Assembly (NCBI GenBank): GCA_019694685.1
Contig: JAIBBM010000002.1
Location: forward strand, 62,001-126,000
DNA length: 64,000 nt
Reading direction: 5' to 3'
DNA from: Leptospirales bacterium
GTDB taxonomy: Bacteria > Spirochaetota > Leptospiria > Leptospirales > Leptonemataceae
This document shows, one piece after another, positions 44,073 through 61,649 of the stretch (position 1 is its first letter; every line of letters starts with the position of its first letter). The notes below the pieces were generated by a model. The model saw only the letters and a program-made list of their open reading frames with translations. It ran no database searches and was not told the origin of the DNA. Made by a program: the position numbers and the translations under genes.

Positions 44073-44999
44073 CTAGAAAATGGATCTGTAGATCCAGCAA
44101 TCGGGTCCTTCATCGAAGTAACGGCGCGCTGCTGGACTGAGCTGCGCCCAGATTGACTGGGAAATTCTAAGGCGGCCACGTCCGTCTTCTTTTGCAAGAT
44201 GAGCGCTCTTATTGAGCGCCGCACTCTGCAGGATAGAGGGATCTGCTCTGTAAACAGTGTCTCCTAGATCCAGCCCGATGTTGATTCCAAAATCGCGGCT
44301 GCGATCCTGCAAAGCGCCATGCAGTACGTTCAATGTCATCAGCTCTATAGCACACATGACTACAGAAACTGCATCCTGCTTGTGAAACACAAAGAAGCCA
44401 GCGTCGTCTTTGCGAAGCCAGAGCTGCCCATTGTAGCGCTGAGCGGTTCTCGAATACATATCGAAGAGCACGCCAAGACTTGACTGAATCTCAGAACCCT
44501 GCCTGGAAACGGAAAACTTCTGATCCACAACCACCTGGCAATAGAGAAATGCGAGCGGATAAGTCTGACCTTCCACGAACGTAGAGGAGGGCTGAGACGG
44601 AGTGGGACTCCTTGAGCCAGGAAGAGAAAGATGAACCTTCATTCTGGCAATGAGGACAGGAAGATCGACAGGCTTGCCGACGAAGTCGTTTGCACCCGCT
44701 TCAAGCACAGACACGACTTGCGCGGATTCCGAATCTGATGAAATAAAGATCACAGGAAGCTCTGTGCGCGAATAACGGGCGCGAATGCGAGCAAGCACTT
44801 CCAGGCCTGAGATACCTGGCAACCCGGCGTCGAGCAGCAGCAAATCAGGCTTGGTGGAGGCGAAGAACTCAAGATAGCTTTCCCCGTTAGGAAAAATCAA
44901 AACCGACATGTCTGGTTGCGAAGCAAGGCCTCGCTGAAGAACTTCCAGGATCAGAGGATCATCGTCCACGATCACAATGGTAGAGCGTTCGTGGGTCAA
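44073..44999 (-). CDS. receiver domain fused to a degenerate cyclase-fold domain (C2-like)
   Basis: A 308-residue protein. The receiver (~6-125) is intact: VDDDP, phospho-Asp in LLLDAGLPGISG, KPVD. The C-terminal ~175 residues follow the class III cyclase fold (LAFLYCQVVVD, LWLRKDDAGFFVF, FGINIGLDLGD, SAALNKSAHLAKE). By my alignment the first metal Asp is replaced by Gln, the second Asp remains, the transition-state Asn remains (LNKSAH) and the Arg is His. It cannot be a normal homodimeric cyclase. It overlaps by four bases the gene for the complementary domain at 44996-45883. Confidence 0.8.
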   Translation of the reverse strand: MTHERSTIVIVDDDPLILEVLQRGLASQPDMSVLIFPNGESYLEFFASTKPDLLLLDAGLPGISGLEVLARIRARYSRTELPVIFISSDSESAQVVSVLEAGANDFVGKPVDLPVLIARMKVHLSLPGSRSPTPSQPSSTFVEGQTYPLAFLYCQVVVDQKFSVSRQGSEIQSSLGVLFDMYSRTAQRYNGQLWLRKDDAGFFVFHKQDAVSVVMCAIELMTLNVLHGALQDRSRDFGINIGLDLGDTVYRADPSILQSAALNKSAHLAKEDGRGRLRISQSIWAQLSPAARRYFDEGPDCWIYRSIF

Positions 45000-45883
45000 A
45001 GTGGGATCTCCGTCAGGCGATACGTTTCAAGATGATCAAAGCGTGGCCCCGCTACAAAACACGGATACATTTCCGGCTTCAAAAAAGTGTACACAGATCC
45101 CGAAATCGCCATGCGATTTGGTTCGCTGACCTCGGATTCCAGCTTTTGAGCCACACGCATGTCACTGGAGAAGATCTCGTTGACTGGTTGTTTGTACGTT
45201 GCTGTTCCGTAGTGAATGCCAACGCGAATCCGAAGTTCCGGGCCCTGCGCGAGGTATTTGATATTGAAGACTGGTAGATTCATGAGAACAGCCAGCATGG
45301 AAATCACACATCGATTCACTGAATCCGCACCGTGAAAAGCGGCCATGCCTCCGTCTCCCATCCAGTTCCAGAGACGACCGTTCCACACCTCCGCATAGTT
45401 TCGCACGTACTCTCTCATCTGTGCAAATACCTGCGCGTTCTCATGACCGAACTGCGAACTGCCCACTACATCTACCGAAGCAAAAGTCAGATGGTACTCA
45501 CGGCCCTCTGCCATGTGTCCCCAGTCCGCAGTGCGCTCCATTGCCTGGTCTCGCACGAACTGGCGCATCTCTCTGTCGTAGTGCCAGCTCTCTGCTTCGA
45601 GCAATTCGAGGAGAGCTGCTTTTCCTTTTAGTAATACTTGAGAACCTGCAACAAATTTCCCTTCGCGTGCGAGTACATGAGCAAGGAATGCGAGCAAATC
45701 CTTGTCCTGCGCAAAGAAATCCCCGATACAACGCACGGCGACCTGAAGGGGTACACGAATGCTCGATCCAAAACCGGAAACCACTCCCAGGTTGAACGAT
45801 TCATTCACCTCATGGGCGAGTATGTCCATCTGATCTGTAGTAAGAGAATGACCTATGGCCTGTAATACGCTGGAACGAAACAC
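44996..45883 (-). CDS. cyclase-fold protein retaining the metal-binding Asp residues (C1-like)
   Basis: A 295-residue protein with an N-terminal helical part (~1-125) of no recognised family and a class III cyclase-type domain (~130-280). The metal Asp are present in ASVDVVGSS and NWMGDGGMAAF, but the transition-state Asn and Arg are replaced (SSDMRVAQKLE). The adenine-specifying Lys position reads Asn. The start is a GTG 34 bases after the hybrid kinase stop; the stop overlaps the next gene (ATGA). Together with its neighbour it has a full set of catalytic residues. Confidence 0.8.
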   Translation of the reverse strand: MFRSSVLQAIGHSLTTDQMDILAHEVNESFNLGVVSGFGSSIRVPLQVAVRCIGDFFAQDKDLLAFLAHVLAREGKFVAGSQVLLKGKAALLELLEAESWHYDREMRQFVRDQAMERTADWGHMAEGREYHLTFASVDVVGSSQFGHENAQVFAQMREYVRNYAEVWNGRLWNWMGDGGMAAFHGADSVNRCVISMLAVLMNLPVFNIKYLAQGPELRIRVGIHYGTATYKQPVNEIFSSDMRVAQKLESEVSEPNRMAISGSVYTFLKPEMYPCFVAGPRFDHLETYRLTEIPL

Positions 45884-45917
45884 GAGAGACAGAATAAAAA
45901 AGCGCCCGCAATTGCAG

Positions 45918-48341
45918 TCAACTTTTTTGAACAGAAGAAGGCCGAATTACAGCAAGAACTGCATCTACAATGTCTTCTGGCGAATAGGGCTTGCTAATGT
46001 ATGCCTTGAAACCGGCAGTGAGCAGCTTCTCTCGAACCCCGGCCATTGCATTGGCTGTGACCGCCACAATTGGCGGGGCAGATTCTCCCAGTTTTTCCTG
46101 GATTTTTTTCAATGCACCAACACCATCGAGACCAGGCATCTCAATATCCATGAAGATGATATCGTAGCGCTTCAAGAGGCTCATATCCACTGCAGTCAAG
46201 CCGTCCTCTGCTGTATCCACAGTCATGCGCAGACGCTCTCCAATCTTCTGAAACACAATCCGATTGATTTCGTTGTCCTCCGCAGCCAGCACCTGAAGAC
46301 CTTCCGGAAGCAGATCGGAAGGAGCAGCGGGAGTGTCCACTCTAGTAGTGTCCACGGTCGTTGGTCTTTCAGGCAGAATCAGTATGAATGAGCTACCCCC
46401 GCCTGGAATGGATTCTGCTGTGATTTCTCCTCCCATGAGGTGAGCCAGTTGAAGGCTGATCGCAAGGCCAAGCCCCGTTCCACCTACTCGGCGCGCAGGC
46501 GAAGAGTCGAGTTGCGTAAATGATTGGAAAAGCAAACCGAATTTGTCCGGCGGTATTCCAATGCCAGTGTCTTTCACCTGAAAGCGAATCATCCCGTTGT
46601 CGCGGTCTACCTTCAGAGTGATTGTGCCGGAATCGGTGAATTTGACAGCATTGGAAAGAAGGTTCAATAGTATTTGATACACGCGGGTGCGATCGGTCAA
46701 AATCGCCTGCGGCATGTTTAACGGAAAAATCACAAGCAACTGCAAACCTTTCCTCTGCGCTGCAGGCTCCGTCATGGCAGTGAGGCTCGTGATCAAATCC
46801 TTTATCACAACCGGCTCGTCCGTAAGAGTCATCGCACCACTTTCAATTTTGGAAATGTCCAGAATGTCATTGAGAATAGTCAGAAGCGTTTCAGAAGAAG
46901 CGCGAATAGTAGAAAGGTATCTCTGTTCGTCTTCCCCGAGCTTCGCATCATCCAACAGCCGAAGCATACCCATAATTCCATTCATAGGAGTGCGAATCTC
47001 GTGACTCATGTGAGCCAGGAACTCGGCTTTCGCCTGCGAAGAATTTTCCGCAATGGAACGAGCTGTCTCAATCTCTCTGGTTCTTTCAGCCACTCTCTCT
47101 TCGAGCCTGTTTTTCCAGCTCACAAGTTCTGCATTGGTTCGCGTCAAATTCTCTGAAAGGGATTCAGACAACGCGAAAGCGCGCGAGAATCTCTTGCTGA
47201 GCCCCACCGCCTGCACAAACATGAATACAATGATTCCATAGGGAGAAAGAAGAGCTGTGTTGATGATGTTTTTGTTATAAAGAACATCATTTGCGTATGC
47301 TGCCACCATAAGCAGCAGACCCAGACCTACGGGGCCCACACCCTGCACTTTCTTAAACAGTCCGCGCGCAATTCCAAACAATAAAAAAACAGAAGCAAGC
47401 CCGACCACAATGTAGTAATAGTCAATGAACCTGGTGAAATGAAGCGGAGTAAGAAACAAAACAGAGAACGCAAATAAGAGTGCAATGGCGACGGTCGCTC
47501 TCTGACTCCAGATCAGAATTGTATCTGAATAGATGGCGGCAATGTATGCGGCAAACGCGGGAGCTGCCAGGTAGAAAGAAAGATAAACGATCCTTGCATG
47601 AACGTTATACGGAATTGAATCCAGTCCAAGCAGAATGGGAGTTGACCCGGTAAAAGCTGCACGCGCGGCCAGATTCAAACACAGAAGGGCAAAGTAAGCG
47701 GGCGCAGGATCCTTTCGGCGAAGAAAAAAAATGATTCCGTGATACAAGGCAAGAACAAGCAAAATACCCACAAGAAATGCATCACGACCCAGCTCGCGCT
47801 CTCGCATGAGGGTGATATGTTCCATGGAGCCTATGTAGGCCCCGTAGCCAATTCCTCCGCGCGCGTGATGGAAGTTCGCAAGATGGATCACAAGAACCAC
47901 CTCCGAAGAATCGGAAGGGATCTCGAAAACGCGCGGCCGCCACTCCGGTGTTGTAGTTGCTTCTGTTTCTCCAGGAGTTCCCGCCGATCCGAGCAATCTA
48001 CCATCCGCGTAAATCGAGTAAGCCGTTTCAGTGTGAGCAAAAAAGAGAGCGGGCCTGCGCAGCCCGGGCGGGAGAAGGACTTTCAAACGATACGTGGCAA
48101 AGCCTGTCCCCGGTTCTCCGTGAGAGGGCCACACTCCGGGAACTGTCATGGTCCGATCTGCAGCAGCATCCTCCGTTGGAGGAAGAAAACGATTTCGAAA
48201 AAATCCCCATTCGCCCTCTAGCTCTATGGGCTCCGAGTAAGTCATTTTGCTCAGGTCCAGGACGCCGCCCGCAGCAACAGGCAAACCCGTTCGAGGAGAA
48301 CAGGCGGCAGCAATGAAAACGAACAAAATCGCACACCGCAT
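45918..48341 (-). CDS. 7TMR-DISM hybrid histidine kinase
   Basis: About 807 residues. Lipobox-bearing signal (FIAAACS), an extracytoplasmic jelly-roll domain (~30-185), seven membrane helices (~190-395), a coiled coil, HisKA with phospho-His in [15 protein letters not shown], an ATPase ([23 protein letters not shown]) and a C-terminal receiver (EDNEIN, phospho-Asp in [18 protein letters not shown]). It is the first gene of an operon with the two cyclase-fold proteins, whose receiver domain is its likely target. The ATG at 48431 would add 30 residues before the signal; 48341 is preferred. Confidence 0.9.
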
Positions 48342-48419
48342 AACCGATCGTGCAGGTCCTCCGGTGGAACGCAAGAAGGATGTTGCTTGAATGGATGAGG
48401 GGGAATTCAAGAATCGCAT

Positions 48420-49718
48420 GTGCGCATCCATAAAATCTGCCTCCTCTCTTGCTTCTTCCTACTGTGTTCCGTCATCCAGAGTCTCCACTGCGAAACCAGA
48501 GATTCATTCCTGGTCGTACAGACAGGGTGGACCACTGCGGCGGACACTATTTCGCAGGAAGAACTTCGACGCAGTTTTTGCGCTGGATCCGTCCGCTCTT
48601 CTGCATCCGCATGGCCGGCAGCGAGCGCACTGTTCGGCTGCAAAGGAGCAGAACCCGCGAAAGTAGAGGCGTTCTATCCTGCTTCGCGCGAAAAACTCAT
48701 CCTCCTCGATCTTTCAGAAACAACTCCCCGTATGAAAGCACTGAAAGTGGACGGTCTTTCGCCGTTCGCTGACGGTGAAAAATATCCTCTTCGCGGTAAG
48801 TCCCTACCGCGGTTCACCCATTTTATTCTAACAGGCGTAAGCGCGCTCACTCGATACACTGGTAAGAGCGCGGATGCAAACGGAGTGTCGGTTCTCTCCG
48901 AACAGGTCAGACCATTCTTTCAAAGCGCAGATTTTGTTCACGTGAGCAACGAAGTAAGTTTTACATCTCCCTGCGTGTTTGAAAAAGGAACCAGGTTTTG
49001 CTCAAAGGAAGCTCACTTCCAGGTATACAGAGACCTGAAAGTAAACGTGGTTGAGCTTACGGGTAACCACAACCGCGACTACGGAAACGAACCATTCTTT
49101 CGCACATACGACTGGTTTCACGCTCACGGCATGAACACTTTCGGCGGCGGAAAAACAGAAGCATCCGCAAACGAACCACTGGTGTTGAACGCGAACGGAA
49201 CGAGAATTGTATTGATTGGTTTTAACGAACTCTGTCCGCTGAATGAATGCGCCCAGGGATCCACTCCGGGCGCCAATCGATTCGAGGCGGAAAAAGCCCA
49301 TCGCACAGTAACTGATATTCGAAAGAAGTATCCGGATGCGTTTGTCATTGCAACCGTACAGTACGGAGAAGTCAGCGCATACAAACCAACGGAATCACAA
49401 AAACGCATCAGCTACGCGCTGCTGGACTCTGGCGCAGATCTGGCATACGGTTCCCAGGCACATCAGGTCCAACAAATGGAGTTTCGAAAAGGTAAAGTCA
49501 TTCTTCACGGACTCGGAAATTTCCTGTTTGACCAGACACACACGTTTGGCCTCAGACAGGGATACTTTATGAATTTATACTTTCAAGGGAACCGCCTCGC
49601 AGGAATGGAACCAGTGTTTACCTGGATTGACGAAAAATTCAGGCCTGTTCCAGCCACTCCGGCTCAAGCACGCGAAATCAAATCCGCCATCTACTCCGAC
49701 GATTTACTGTACAAATAG
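48420..49718 (+). CDS. secreted CapA-family (PgsA-like) metallophosphatase-fold protein
   Basis: A 432-residue exported protein. The signal peptide ([20 protein letters not shown]) may also be a lipobox. The C-terminal ~280 residues match the CapA/PgsA family: [69 protein letters not shown]. The family is linked to poly-gamma-glutamate and other capsule synthesis. No capB/capC genes are nearby. The start is a GTG at 48420; its 5' end is close to or overlaps the divergent kinase gene. Confidence 0.85.
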
Positions 49719-50675: not shown

Positions 50676-50749
50676 CCCGCCAGAAGCCATTTCTCCTCAT
50701 ATAAATGCCGTTCCTGCCGACCTTTATAAGAGACCCGGAGGACCATTTC

Positions 50750-53071
50750 ATGGCAAGAAACCTCATCATCATTGGCGGTGGCACGCTTCAAATGCCTCTC
50801 ATCGAAACCGCAAAGGCTATGGGGCTTTTTACAATTGTCTTTGATATGACCCTGGAAGCCCCTGGAATGAAAGCGGCGCATCTCCCGGTGACTATGAGCA
50901 CACGCGACATAGATGGATGCGTGCGCGAAGCCAAACGCCTCCGCGAAACCATGCAAATTCACGGCGTGGTGACAGCCGGGACAGACGCAAGCCGGGCTGT
51001 TGCCGCGATCGCAGGTGCCCTGGAACTTCCAGGCATTCGCTACGCAGATGCAGAAGCAGCATCAAACAAAGTACTCATGCGAAAAAGATTGAAGCAACAG
51101 GGAGTTCCTGGTCCTGATTTTAGATCCGTATGGTCCATCAAAGAAGCGCGCGAAGCCATGGACGAGCTCACCTTCCCACTCGTACTCAAGCCTGCAGACA
51201 ACATGGGCGCGCGCGGCGTTATCAAAATCAAAACTCGCGATGAAATCTACTCAGCATTTCGTCATGCAAAGAAGTACAGTCCTACCGGAGAAATGATCCT
51301 CGAAGAATTCATGGAAGGGCCAGAGCTTTCTATAGACGCACTCGCCTGGAAAGGTCACATTCGCCTCACCGGAGTAGCTGACCGGATCATCGCTCGTGAG
51401 CCATACTTCGTGGAACTCGGACACAACATGCCTTCGTCTTTGCCCGCAAGCGTACTTGAAGAGGCGGAGGAAGTAATGAAAGCCGGGATGCGGGCGCTCG
51501 GCATTCATACTGGCGCAGGAAAAGGCGACATCAAGGTGGCGAGACTTCCAGCCGGACAAAAGAATTCACGTCACGCGACACCTTACGATGATTATGCGGT
51601 AAAAGTCGGCGAGATCGCCGCACGTTTGTCAGGCGGTTTCATGTCTTCGCACACTTTCCCGCTTCATTCAGGCATAAATCTACACAAAGCGGCCATCCAG
51701 ATTGCGCTTGGAGATGAACCTTCTTCTCTGGAACCAACTCGCAACCTCGTTGCGATTGAAAGAGGCATTCTATCTTCTCCAGGAAAGATTCTTGAGCTCA
51801 ACGGCGTAGCGGAAATGAGCCAGGTGAAAGGAATCGAACATATCTTCTTCACAAAGAAGACAGGCGAAATCATCCAAGAGGCAACCAGCAATCTGGACAA
51901 AGTCGGCCATGTGATTGCCGTCGCTCCGTCTCTGGAAGAAGCAGAGGCCGCAGCCCAGGAATGTTTGCGCAGAGTTCAGATCACAGTCGACGACACATTC
52001 AGCGTGGACTGGAAAGCCGTAGAGGAAAAAGCACGAACCAGATTCACAGACCAGGTCTGCTGGGTTTGCAAATCATGCGTGGGAAATTGCGCGAGCGCTG
52101 TTCCTGGAATGGGCGGTGTAGGCAACATGACTACATTCAGAGACAACTCGAACGCACTTGGAGAAATTCGCGTCATTCCCAGGTACATTCGCGGTCAAAT
52201 ACAGCCGGACACAACGTTTGAGTTCCTTGGAAGAAAGTTTGAGCTCCCCATTATGTCCGCACCCATGACTGGCACTGCTACAAACATGAATGCTGCGATC
52301 TCTGAATATGACCTGGCTCGCATTTTGATTCACGGCGCACGCGAAAGCGGAAGCATCGCCTGGGTGGGCGATGGTGCCACTCCTGATCGATACAAAACAA
52401 TCTTTCGAGCACTATCAGAAGCAGATTCATTCGGAATTGCGATTTGTAAGCCAAGGGCAGACGAAGCTGCTCTTCGCGAACGATTCAAAGCAGCAGAAGA
52501 ACTGGGGCTGATAGCCGTTGGAATGGACATTGACGCGATTTCGTTTCGCACAATGGAATTGAAGAAGCTGGGTGCCACTGCGCGAAACTACGAAGCACTT
52601 CGAATGCTGAGAGACTCAGTCAAACTGCCCTTTATATTGAAGGGAATCATGTCACCGGAAGACGCAGAAGAGGCACTGCGTGCTGGAGTTTCTGCAATTG
52701 TAGTGAGCAACCATGGAGGTCGCGTTCTGGATGATATGCCAGGCACAGCGCGTGTGTTGCCTGAAATTGTAAGAGCAGTTGGTGGTAGAATTCCTGTACT
52801 CGTGGATGGTGGAGTGCGAAGCGGTCAGGATACCTTTAAGATGCTGGCCCTGGGTGCCAGCGCTGTCCTGGTGGGACGCCCGCTTGGAATTGCGGCTGTA
52901 GGCGGAGACATTGCTGCTGTGAAATATGTCTTCTCTCGCTATCGAGAAGAGCTGGCCCGAACCATGAACCTGTGTGGAACAGAAAAGCTAACTGAAATCG
53001 ACTCTGGCTTCATCCGAACCTACACTACAGAACGCGAAGAAGCAGATCGATCTTCGCATACGGAAGGGTGA
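50750..53071 (+). CDS. ATP-grasp ligase fused to FMN-dependent alpha-hydroxy-acid oxidase-like domain
   Basis: A 773-residue fusion. Residues 1-425 are an ATP-grasp enzyme of the carboxylate-amine ligase type: pre-grasp GGGTLQMPLIETAKAMG, lysine and glycine loop in VLKPADNMGARGV, EEFMEGPELSID, and EIAARLSGG. A Cys-rich segment (437-446, CWVCKSCVGNC) leads into an FMN_dh barrel with FILKGIMS, His655 in SNHGGRVLD, DGGVRSGQD and GRP. Stand-alone Clostridia-type oxidases have a similar Cys-rich start. The ligase could make a compound the oxidase then uses. ATG 50750 follows GGAGG. Substrates unknown. Confidence 0.88.
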   Translation: MARNLIIIGGGTLQMPLIETAKAMGLFTIVFDMTLEAPGMKAAHLPVTMSTRDIDGCVREAKRLRETMQIHGVVTAGTDASRAVAAIAGALELPGIRYADAEAASNKVLMRKRLKQQGVPGPDFRSVWSIKEAREAMDELTFPLVLKPADNMGARGVIKIKTRDEIYSAFRHAKKYSPTGEMILEEFMEGPELSIDALAWKGHIRLTGVADRIIAREPYFVELGHNMPSSLPASVLEEAEEVMKAGMRALGIHTGAGKGDIKVARLPAGQKNSRHATPYDDYAVKVGEIAARLSGGFMSSHTFPLHSGINLHKAAIQIALGDEPSSLEPTRNLVAIERGILSSPGKILELNGVAEMSQVKGIEHIFFTKKTGEIIQEATSNLDKVGHVIAVAPSLEEAEAAAQECLRRVQITVDDTFSVDWKAVEEKARTRFTDQVCWVCKSCVGNCASAVPGMGGVGNMTTFRDNSNALGEIRVIPRYIRGQIQPDTTFEFLGRKFELPIMSAPMTGTATNMNAAISEYDLARILIHGARESGSIAWVGDGATPDRYKTIFRALSEADSFGIAICKPRADEAALRERFKAAEELGLIAVGMDIDAISFRTMELKKLGATARNYEALRMLRDSVKLPFILKGIMSPEDAEEALRAGVSAIVVSNHGGRVLDDMPGTARVLPEIVRAVGGRIPVLVDGGVRSGQDTFKMLALGASAVLVGRPLGIAAVGGDIAAVKYVFSRYREELARTMNLCGTEKLTEIDSGFIRTYTTEREEADRSSHTEG

Positions 53072-59060: not shown

Positions 59061-59870
59061 ATGAATGCAAGGCCACTAGCATCTGTTCTTATGTGCCACG
59101 CGCCCGTCGCCATCCCTGAAATCGCCGGGAAAAATCGCGACGCAGCGCAGAAGACTACATCCGCCATGAAAGCGGCAGCGTCCTTCATCACAACAAGATC
59201 GCCTGACGTAGTTGTGATCGCTTCCCCTCACACACCCAGACTGAAAGAGGAATTTGTAATCCTGAAAGGGGACAGACTTACCGGCGACTTTGCAGATTTC
59301 GAATTTTCAGACATCTCGGTTTCTGTGCCTTCCGATCAGGATGCAGTTTCCCGGCTGATCGCGGAAGCAAACAAGAGTGGAATCCCGGTGAGCGTACGTT
59401 ATGCGGCATCTCTCGATCAGGGAGCGCTGGTTCCTCTTTATTTCATGAAGAAGGCAGGCTGGACGGGAAAGACGATTGTCATTGGTTTTCCGGGAAGGAT
59501 GCCTCTGCGCCAATTTGAATCCCTGGGTCGAGTGATTCGCACCGTTGCACAGACGCGGCAAGAAACGTGGGCCTTCATTGCATCCGGTGATATGAGCCAC
59601 AGACTTGCGCCAGGATCCCCCGCAGGCTATGACCAGAAGGCACACAACTTCGATGATTCCATTGTTCTAGCGTTAAGAGAAGGAAGGCTGGCAGACGCAC
59701 TGGACGTAGATCCGGAGTTGCGCAAACTTGCATCAGAAGATGTGGTCGAGTCATTGGCGATTGCTTACGGAACATCAGGCGGAATGCGAGGAGGAAGAGT
59801 GTTGTCCTACGAAAGTCCTTTTGGCGTAGGCTACCTCGTTGCTATTTTGTGTGACCCTGATTCGGAATGA
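59061..59870 (+). CDS. LigB/Memo-like extradiol dioxygenase-fold protein
   Basis: A 269-residue protein of the class III extradiol dioxygenase/Memo superfamily. Likely metal or active-site residues lie in MCHAPVAIPEI, VVIASPHTP, LDQGALVPLYFM and ASGDMSHRL. In many bacteria this domain occurs with AMMECR1 and a radical SAM protein (the AmmeMemoRadiSam group); neither partner is seen here. It is followed after 57 bases by the CLC channel gene. Whether it is an enzyme or a Memo-type binding protein cannot be told. Confidence 0.82.
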   Translation: MNARPLASVLMCHAPVAIPEIAGKNRDAAQKTTSAMKAAASFITTRSPDVVVIASPHTPRLKEEFVILKGDRLTGDFADFEFSDISVSVPSDQDAVSRLIAEANKSGIPVSVRYAASLDQGALVPLYFMKKAGWTGKTIVIGFPGRMPLRQFESLGRVIRTVAQTRQETWAFIASGDMSHRLAPGSPAGYDQKAHNFDDSIVLALREGRLADALDVDPELRKLASEDVVESLAIAYGTSGGMRGGRVLSYESPFGVGYLVAILCDPDSE

Positions 59871-59927: not shown

Positions 59928-61649
59928 GTGGTTGCACGCCTCATCCCGTCCTTTATCAGAACTTCAGGCGCTCTCTACCTCATCTGCCTTTTGATTGGAG
60001 TCTTGACGGGACTAGGATCTCTGATTTTCGCCACTCTTCTGGAAAAGGGGGAAGGAATCCTCCTTCATTCTCTGGTTCAATTCCAGCACGAGCGTCCATT
60101 CGATTTCAGTACGCTCCTGGACATTCGAATTCTGGGGCTCCTTCTGGCAGGTGCGCTCGTCAACGGAATCATCATTCGCTTCTTCGCAGGAGAAGTGCGC
60201 GGGAGCGGGATTGACTTCATCATTGATCGTTTTCACAATCATGAAGGAAGAATGCGCGGGCGAGTGGCCACCTACAAGTCCATTGCGACGATTGCATCAC
60301 TGAGCACGGGTGCTAGCGCAGGTAAAGAAGGACCGGCGGCTCAAATTGGCGCAGGCATTGGATCGCTCGTTGCAAATCGAATTCAAATAGGGCCGCGGGC
60401 TCGCCGAACGATGTTGTTAGCTGGAGCTGCGGGAGGTCTGGGAGCTGTGTTTCACGCTCCGCTCGCCGGAGCACTCACTGCAGTTGAAATGCTCTACCGC
60501 GAAGACGTCGAATCCGATTCACTGGTTCCGTGCATTATTTCTTCCGTAAGCGCCTATCTGGTCTACACGATGATTCGAGGCACTGGCCCCATATACCCTT
60601 CGACAGATCTGAGCTTTCGCGCCCTCGATTTGCCCTTCTTTGCGATACTGGGACTGCTGTGTTTTGTTTGTGGATTTGTTTTTGTTCGCACGTATGAATT
60701 CATTTCGCATTCGTTTACGAGGTCTCGCATTCCGCTGCTCCTCCAACCGATCCTGGGCGCCATTCTTGTTTTCGCGGTTGCTGCGGGCTTTCCTCAAGTG
60801 CTTGGCAGCGGAGCAGAAACGTTGCGCGGACTCCTGGCCCAGCCGTCATTTCCCGCAACGTTCACTTTGTGCGCGTGGTTTCTAATGCTTGGATTTGCGA
60901 AGATGATCGCAAGCAGTCTCACTGTTGGATCGGGCAACTCGGGTGGATTATTTGGGCCTTCTCTTCTCATGGGCGCCTATCTTGGCCTTGCGGTTGGAAC
61001 TGCCGCGCATTTGTTTCTTCCTGGGCAAACCGCAAGCCTCCATTCGTATGCTCTGGTGGGGATGGGCGCATTCTACTCTGGAATTGCAAGTGCACCCATT
61101 GCGGGGATGTTAATGGTATGCGAAATGACAGGCAGCTACCGACTCCTCCCTGGATTGATTCTTGTCACCACGCTCGCACTCGTTCTTTCGCAGAAGTGGA
61201 GCATTTACAAAAGCCAGCTCCACAATCGCTTTCAATCCCCTGCTCATGACTGGGATATCAAGATGGATTTCCTGGAACGGGCGCGACTTGGCGAAAGCAA
61301 GATTGAAATTCGGCGGCACGCGATGGTAAAAGTTGACGCGACTCTGGCCACTCTTCGCAAGCTTGCCGCTCGAGTGCACGCGTCCGATTTCGTTGTTTTC
61401 GACAAAGAGCACTATTCAGGAATGATTTCGCTTAAACAATATCAGGGCAGACAGAACTCAAGAATCCGACCAGATCTTACAGTGCCTGCTGTTTCTCCAC
61501 GCGATACTCTGGCAAGAGCACTCCGCATCATGTCTGACCGCGAGCTCGACAAGGTAGCGGTGGTAGATGAAGGAAGAATTCTCGGCTATGTGCGACAGAG
61601 AGATGTAGTCGGGTTCTACTTCAGCTCTGTCAGGGGCGGCACTTCCTGA
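59928..61649 (+). CDS. CLC-family chloride channel/antiporter with C-terminal CBS region
   Basis: A 573-residue membrane protein of the CLC family. Selectivity motifs are GSGIDFII, GKEGPAAQIG (with the gating Glu) and GNSGGLFGPSL. Tyr in the last motif region and the proton-path Glu in TAVEML suggest the usual architecture. Residues ~455-573 hold one clear CBS domain (VPAVSPRDTLARAL...YVRQRDVVGF) and a degenerate one before it, for nucleotide regulation. It starts with GTG and overlaps the convergent monooxygenase gene by 20 bases. Confidence 0.93.
   Translation: MVARLIPSFIRTSGALYLICLLIGVLTGLGSLIFATLLEKGEGILLHSLVQFQHERPFDFSTLLDIRILGLLLAGALVNGIIIRFFAGEVRGSGIDFIIDRFHNHEGRMRGRVATYKSIATIASLSTGASAGKEGPAAQIGAGIGSLVANRIQIGPRARRTMLLAGAAGGLGAVFHAPLAGALTAVEMLYREDVESDSLVPCIISSVSAYLVYTMIRGTGPIYPSTDLSFRALDLPFFAILGLLCFVCGFVFVRTYEFISHSFTRSRIPLLLQPILGAILVFAVAAGFPQVLGSGAETLRGLLAQPSFPATFTLCAWFLMLGFAKMIASSLTVGSGNSGGLFGPSLLMGAYLGLAVGTAAHLFLPGQTASLHSYALVGMGAFYSGIASAPIAGMLMVCEMTGSYRLLPGLILVTTLALVLSQKWSIYKSQLHNRFQSPAHDWDIKMDFLERARLGESKIEIRRHAMVKVDATLATLRKLAARVHASDFVVFDKEHYSGMISLKQYQGRQNSRIRPDLTVPAVSPRDTLARALRIMSDRELDKVAVVDEGRILGYVRQRDVVGFYFSSVRGGTS

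Follow-up and report, generated by a model that had tools for sequence, protein, structure and literature searches.

A gene on the plus strand of a Leptospirales genome (50750..53071 of the window, which is the whole 64,000-nucleotide stretch of DNA analysed) encodes a 773-residue protein that joins an ATP-grasp ligase, a four-cysteine segment and an FMN barrel, as is evident from the open reading frame, the Pfam domains and relatives carrying the same fusion. The fusion is probably part of the pathway that decorates the periplasmic flagellin of spirochaetes with nonulosonic acid, with both the ligase and the FMN step included. The link of the ATP-grasp to the flagellin nonulosonic-acid pathway is well supported, and the chemistry of both halves is what we infer for it.

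The reading frame is intact and comprises 773 codons from the ATG at 50750 to 53071, or 788 codons if translation starts at the in-frame ATG at 50705. The start at 50750 is favored because a GGAGG ribosome-binding site lies at 50737..50741 (+), with an apparent spacing of 8 nt to that ATG. Three Pfam families, ATP-grasp_4, LAL_C2 and FMN_dh, score above their gathering thresholds in the protein; none of the 25 NCBIfam models listed, out of 60, reached its cut-off with the fusion protein as query. An AlphaFold model (mean pLDDT 89.1, pTM 0.70) returns, in Foldseek, the same two folds as the PDB relatives detected by sequence. The original prediction described one frame joining two enzymes and named a sequencing frameshift that merged two genes among the findings that would refute it. 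A frameshift or assembly artefact is ruled out because the fusion is conserved in other genomes, recurring in eight named contigs and, within the phylum, in about 120 of the 392 genomes surveyed. The sigma-28 consensus occurs 6 times where 13.5 hits would be expected, and never at the fusion gene; a promoter of this class was dropped from consideration.

The ATP-grasp half spans approximately residues 1–414 (50750..51991, +), as defined by Pfam, alignments and Foldseek matches to 4dim and 3vot. The LAL_C2 domain at residues 343–413 scores 66.1 bits (cut-off 29.4) and ATP-grasp_4 scores 46.4 bits (cut-off 27). Residues K107, K147, E185, E192, E288 and R292 are conserved. In an alignment of 37 of the 44 called fusions, from which two Brachyspira-like sequences and five close relatives were excluded, K107 and K147 occur in all 37 and E185 and E288 in 36. 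We take these four to be the nucleotide-binding lysines and acidic metal-binding residues of ATP-grasp enzymes. The PDB relatives by sequence are the L-amino acid ligase BL00235 (3vot) and 4dim, which share the ATP-grasp fold with the window protein, which also has LAL_C2; they differ in showing 20–22% identity in structural alignment and in having no FMN domain. By its domains and conserved residues the half is of the L-amino-acid-ligase type, and it is predicted to form an amide.

The FMN barrel, of the FMN_dh family (223.6 bits, cut-off 24.9), covers approximately residues 455–756 (52112..53017, +), with lactate oxidase and glycolate oxidase as its PDB relatives by sequence and 1al8 and 1gox as its Foldseek matches. 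The core residues that the original prediction listed are in place, namely Lys631 in LKGIM (52640..52642, +), His655 and Arg658 in SNHGGR at residues 653–658 (52706..52723, +), DGGVR at 686–690 (52805..52819, +) and G709–R710, as are the lysine and acidic residues of the ATP-grasp half. Lys631 is presumably the active-site residue of the FMN oxidase family, and we assume that DGGVR is the FMN phosphate loop. K631 and R658 are invariant in the 37 aligned fusions, and the catalytic histidine is changed in three (SNKGGR in two, SNRGGR in one). In the classical oxidases, the N-terminal substrate-binding segment carries a tyrosine. In the window protein this region is not recognizable from the alignments with solved oxidases, which start only past the cysteine segment, at profile position 32, and stay weak over the N-terminal half. 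Glycolate oxidase (1gox) and lactate oxidase share the C-terminal part of the barrel with its Lys, His, Arg and FMN loop; they differ in the N-terminal segment, where the window protein has its four cysteines, and are not fused to an ATP-grasp. The earlier label of alpha-hydroxy-acid oxidase holds as far as FMN_dh membership and the active-site residues go; as an activity it was too strong and serves as a superfamily label, with 2-hydroxy-acid oxidation predicted at most.

The four-cysteine segment, CWVCKSCVGNC, lies at residues 437–447 (52058..52090, +). C437, C440, C443 and C447 are invariant in all 37 aligned fusions, and the pattern C-x2-C-x2-C-x3/4-C before PGxG is found in 12 of 12 aligned barrels, fused and standalone, as well as in a Vescimonas protein. 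The resemblance to Clostridia-type standalone oxidases pointed out at the outset is therefore borne out. Since standalone barrels and the clostridial protein carry the four cysteines, the segment is part of the barrel and not of the fusion joint. The Clostridia-type "alpha-hydroxy-acid oxidizing protein" shares the cysteine pattern and the barrel at 37% identity; it differs in being standalone and, in the one annotated case, in having no glycan genes nearby. A metal or cluster at the four cysteines is plausible. The AlphaFold model was considered as a guide to a structural metal site and set aside, as confidence is low at residues 436–457 and the model is uninformative at the cysteine segment (pLDDT < 50).

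The distribution of the fusion was surveyed in 392 genomes of the phylum with the fusion protein as query (E <= 1e-40). Some match was found in 303 genomes. Full-length fusions, defined as a single place matching across 700 residues or more, occur in about 120 of the 392 by manual count and span about 30 family codes, with one in-frame stop in six of them; the eight named contigs, most of them from Leptospirales or Spirochaetia, carry the fusion at 56–84% identity. Judged from these sequences, the fusion is old and widespread in the phylum, rather than a local curiosity. Treponeme-type families contain an orthologous ATP-grasp that is 33–42% identical, lacks the barrel and has its own C-terminal extension. 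Two Brachyspira-like loci (L115:8445-10592 and L116:8430-10595, both on the minus strand) are still fused and keep the ATP-grasp, with a barrel devoid of the cysteines and of SNHGGR. In a tree of the ATP-grasp half, these degenerate fusions nest among intact ones, so the degeneration looks derived, and the treponeme-type unfused forms group together; the root of this tree is unsafe because of long branches (the outgroups and L138). The genome of L115 also holds a separate clostridial-type barrel (L137). Replacement of the degenerate fused barrel by a standalone Brachyspira-like barrel is a weakened candidate, because the cysteine segment resembles that of the clostridial protein. Among 76 searched genomes of the unfused type, a Cys-type barrel match starting at or before profile position 12 was found in 40 and was missing in 36 (manual count).

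Functional clues come from the gene neighborhoods of the unfused orthologs. Nineteen loci with a called ATP-grasp (L117, L119–L134, L143 and L144) were compared over a span of ~20 kb; L118 was left out because its ATP-grasp was missed by the simple gene caller. Within this distance, spiro-SPASM is encoded in 14 of the 19 loci, an SpsF/SpsG-type gene in 15 and FlaA in 10. A cluster, whole or partial, is recognizable in 14 of the 19 and runs from spiro-SPASM through a Pfam-less protein, which was taken for a glycosyltransferase, an SpsF-type cytidylyltransferase, an SpsG/PseG-like protein with a C-terminal methyltransferase, the ATP-grasp, an amidase and a Germane domain to FlaA. Spiro-SPASM itself (for example, L119:4531-6021) belongs to the radical SAM/SPASM proteins, begins with a nucleotidyltransferase-like region and is found in 304 of the 392 genomes. 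In one small Treponema-like genome (G056), a standalone four-cysteine FMN barrel is found at a distance of one gene from the spiro-SPASM/SpsF cluster. Treponema-like standalone barrels of this kind adjoin phosphofructokinase in 9 of 20 loci (L207, L210–L214, L217, L218 and L222).

The fused loci are less informative. Inspection of neighborhoods in relatives, proposed with the original prediction, bore fruit for the unfused orthologs, which sit beside sugar genes and FlaA, and yielded nothing for the fused locus in the window, where no glycan or flagellar cluster surrounds the gene and the flanks are not conserved. Comparison of five flanking window proteins with 22 relative loci gave a single match, a histidine kinase (30%, L082), as expected of a generic kinase. 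The neighbors in the window (CapA-like, GH43-like, PilZ, kinase and cyclase-like) were accordingly discarded as functional context. By eye, the minus strand of the window at 44073-48431 encodes two cyclase-like regulators and a histidine kinase of the hybrid type. A Pfam match places the protein at 59061-59870 in the LigB family, and the next one (59928-61649) looks, by eye, like a chloride channel with a regulatory tail. Spiro-SPASM is present at 2 of 41 fused loci, and glycan or flagellar genes lie near fusions only at L095, L100 and L107. In the fused genomes examined, spiro-SPASM sits elsewhere, mostly with SpsF/SpsG-type genes (L196–L203).

Across the same 392 genomes, a search for spiro-SPASM (TIGR04321, E <= 1e-10) placed 293 genomes with both this protein and an ATP-grasp match, 10 with the ATP-grasp only, 11 with spiro-SPASM only and 78 with neither. 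The Fisher test for this pairing gives p ~3e-58, a value that ignores shared ancestry, which may explain much of the co-occurrence. Many of the one-sided genomes are incomplete assemblies; the ten with the ATP-grasp only include two f49 genomes, G385 and G358, and the match in G385 is a more distant relative (34–35%). Genomes with neither protein divide into 40 without flagellin (34 of family f49, four of genus g94 in f45, and two of f50, from genera g157 and g161) and 38 with flagellin (36 of family f38, which we infer from genome size and content to be Borrelia-like, together with G190, 78% complete, and G315). Other genera of f45 and f50 retain flagellin, NeuB, spiro-SPASM and the ATP-grasp. 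NeuB, the synthase of nonulosonic acids, was found in all 67 sampled genomes having both the ATP-grasp and spiro-SPASM, and flagellin in 66 of 66 such genomes and also in the genome of the window. NeuB is absent from four of four Borrelia-like genomes, four of four from f49, two of two from f45-g94, and G361. G370 has NeuB and no flagellin; G315 has flagellin and NeuB, yet no fusion or spiro-SPASM match at the thresholds used. Outside the Borrelia-like family, spiro-SPASM tracks flagellin.

More distant homologs are found beside amino-sugar genes as well. On two other contigs of the genome of the window, paralogous ATP-grasps adjoin genes for NeuB, a PIG-L deacetylase, DegT and a cytidylyltransferase-aminotransferase; these are separate genes with 27–32% identity to the fusion family. 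At two loci (L226:1996-4890 on the minus strand, and L227), the ATP-grasp stands beside NeuB and PIG-L, which raises the possibility that another nonulosonic acid is first deacetylated and then reacylated. At L228:1251-4877 in the same genome, an ATP-grasp paralog lies near a methyltransferase and beside a flagellar rod gene of the FlgE/F/G type. A Solidesulfovibrio ATP-grasp with 31% identity belongs to a pseB-pseC-pseF-NeuB cluster with two methyltransferases, FabG and a transketolase, and in Parabacteroides and Enterococcus hirae, capsule clusters contain further homologs beside aminotransferases and sugar transferases. An amino sugar would be the common factor of these clusters.

The Solidesulfovibrio cluster appears much like the sfmABCDE gene set of Shewanella oneidensis. 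According to the sections of the Shewanella report covered here, loss of sfmABCDE shifts the flagellin mass, and the flagellin bears a mono-N-acetyl nonulosonic acid (274 Da) and a nitrogen-free, O-methylated moiety of 236–264 Da (PMC3765264). In these same sections, an ATP-grasp ligase (sfmE, ATP-grasp_4), a methyltransferase and NeuB likewise serve one flagellin pathway; the system differs in that the TPP enzyme and the FabG-type reductase are separate genes, with neither an FMN barrel nor a fusion among those described. The proposed likeness to SfmE rests on the gene set and on the 31%-identical Solidesulfovibrio ATP-grasp. By this analogy, the fusion would be a form of flagellin nonulosonic-acid decoration in which the ligase works like the SfmE type.

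A second flagellin glycan is that of FlaB in the spirochaete Treponema denticola. This 450.2 Da glycan is reportedly a mono-acetylated nonulosonic acid with a 2-methoxy-4,5,6-trihydroxyhexanoyl group on N7. This structure sums to 450.185 Da, an arithmetical agreement and not a confirmation. With its O-methylated 2-hydroxy group, the acid could have a hexose as its source, and a 2-hydroxy-acid-family FMN enzyme, a methyltransferase and an amide ligase would be the activities needed for it. G019, a genome that appears to be T. denticola-like, carries the ATP-grasp together with spiro-SPASM, NeuB and a standalone four-cysteine barrel.

These parallels allow a mechanism to be proposed. The ATP-grasp half would activate a carboxylic acid at the expense of ATP and couple it to an amine left free at C5 or C7 in a diamino-nonulosonic acid or its precursor. 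The FMN half with its four-cysteine segment would interconvert keto and hydroxy groups at the alpha carbon of the acid before (or after) ligation. O-methylation of the acid would fall to the S-adenosylmethionine methyltransferase that accompanies the SpsG-like gene in unfused clusters. The fused enzyme would in this way make and attach its own acyl group. N-acylation of an amine is the simplest reading, given a carboxylate-amine ligase of ATP-grasp type in amino-sugar pathways, and formation of an amide by this half is rather probable. A hydroxy acid joined to an amine, as originally suggested, remains the best guess at the chemistry. The FMN step is the weakest part because many unfused lineages have no barrel, and the odds that the barrel acts on the same acid as the ligase are somewhat below even; in barrel-less lineages, either the acyl group differs or another enzyme performs the step. 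The full bifunctional module is tentative: its four-cysteine FMN domain, which may hold an iron-sulfur cluster, would set the alpha carbon of an acid made from a sugar, and the ATP-grasp would pass this acid directly to the nonulosonic-acid amine. If true, it would be a redox-coupled N-acylation module new to glycosylation pathways in the open-access literature searched.

The alternative that fares best keeps the ATP-grasp as a decorator of flagellin nonulosonic acid and gives the FMN barrel an unrelated or structural job, such as oligomerization or a metabolic redox activity kept by chance. The degenerate barrels of the Brachyspira-like fusions, the loss of the histidine in three of 37 fusions, the 36 of 76 unfused-type genomes without a full Cys-type match and the proximity of standalone barrels to phosphofructokinase would all fit. 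Against these stand the invariance of the four cysteines and the core Lys and Arg in all 37 aligned fusions, which speaks for catalysis being retained in fusions other than the Brachyspira-like ones, and the barrel near the glycan cluster in G056; a barrel with no part in the decoration is unlikely, about one chance in a few.

The two remaining alternatives concern the product of the ligase, and both are improbable. A role in making a soluble, non-flagellar metabolite, as a ligase for dipeptides or hydroxy-acid amides whose distribution mirrors only the deep splits of the phylum, would suit the closest solved relatives (the L-amino acid ligases 3vot and 4wd3 and the unassigned 4dim) and the lack of cluster adjacency in most fused genomes. 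It sits poorly with the joint loss of the protein and flagellin in three family codes, of which two include relatives keeping everything, with the operon-like context of the unfused orthologs (SpsF/SpsG, spiro-SPASM and FlaA) and with the NeuB or pse clusters around paralogs and distant homologs. Placement of the decorated sugar on another envelope glycan (LPS or capsule), to which the Parabacteroides and Enterococcus capsule clusters and the NeuB-side paralogs, which could serve O-antigen, might point, is no likelier, as those paralogs are the separate, distant genes described above and the ortholog tracks flagellin and has FlaA neighbors.

If decoration of flagellin nonulosonic acid is the correct reading, the fusion fills a missing step in the making of the spirochaete flagellar sugar coating. 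It would also define a short gene list (the fusion, spiro-SPASM, the SpsF/SpsG-methyltransferase pair and NeuB) common to most flagellated spirochaetes and missing from Borrelia-like and flagellin-less lineages. Flagellin glycosylation matters in this group: in the parts of the reports considered here, the 450.2 Da T. denticola glycan is described as essential for filament assembly (PMC9481697), and glycan-like densities on FlaB1 of L. biflexa are suggested to keep the sheath attached to the core (PMC13144727). At the level of titles and the opening lines of abstracts, the open-access literature searched held no description of an ATP-grasp/FMN fusion, no paper using the term spiro-SPASM and no assignment of the enzymes of the spirochaete acyl branch. 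Outside the phylum, a Streptomyces plasmid (L242:4326-11278) encodes an ATP-grasp, a GNAT protein, an FMN oxidase without the cysteine segment, a methyltransferase and an MFS transporter, and thus presents an independent pairing of the two enzyme types as neighbors.
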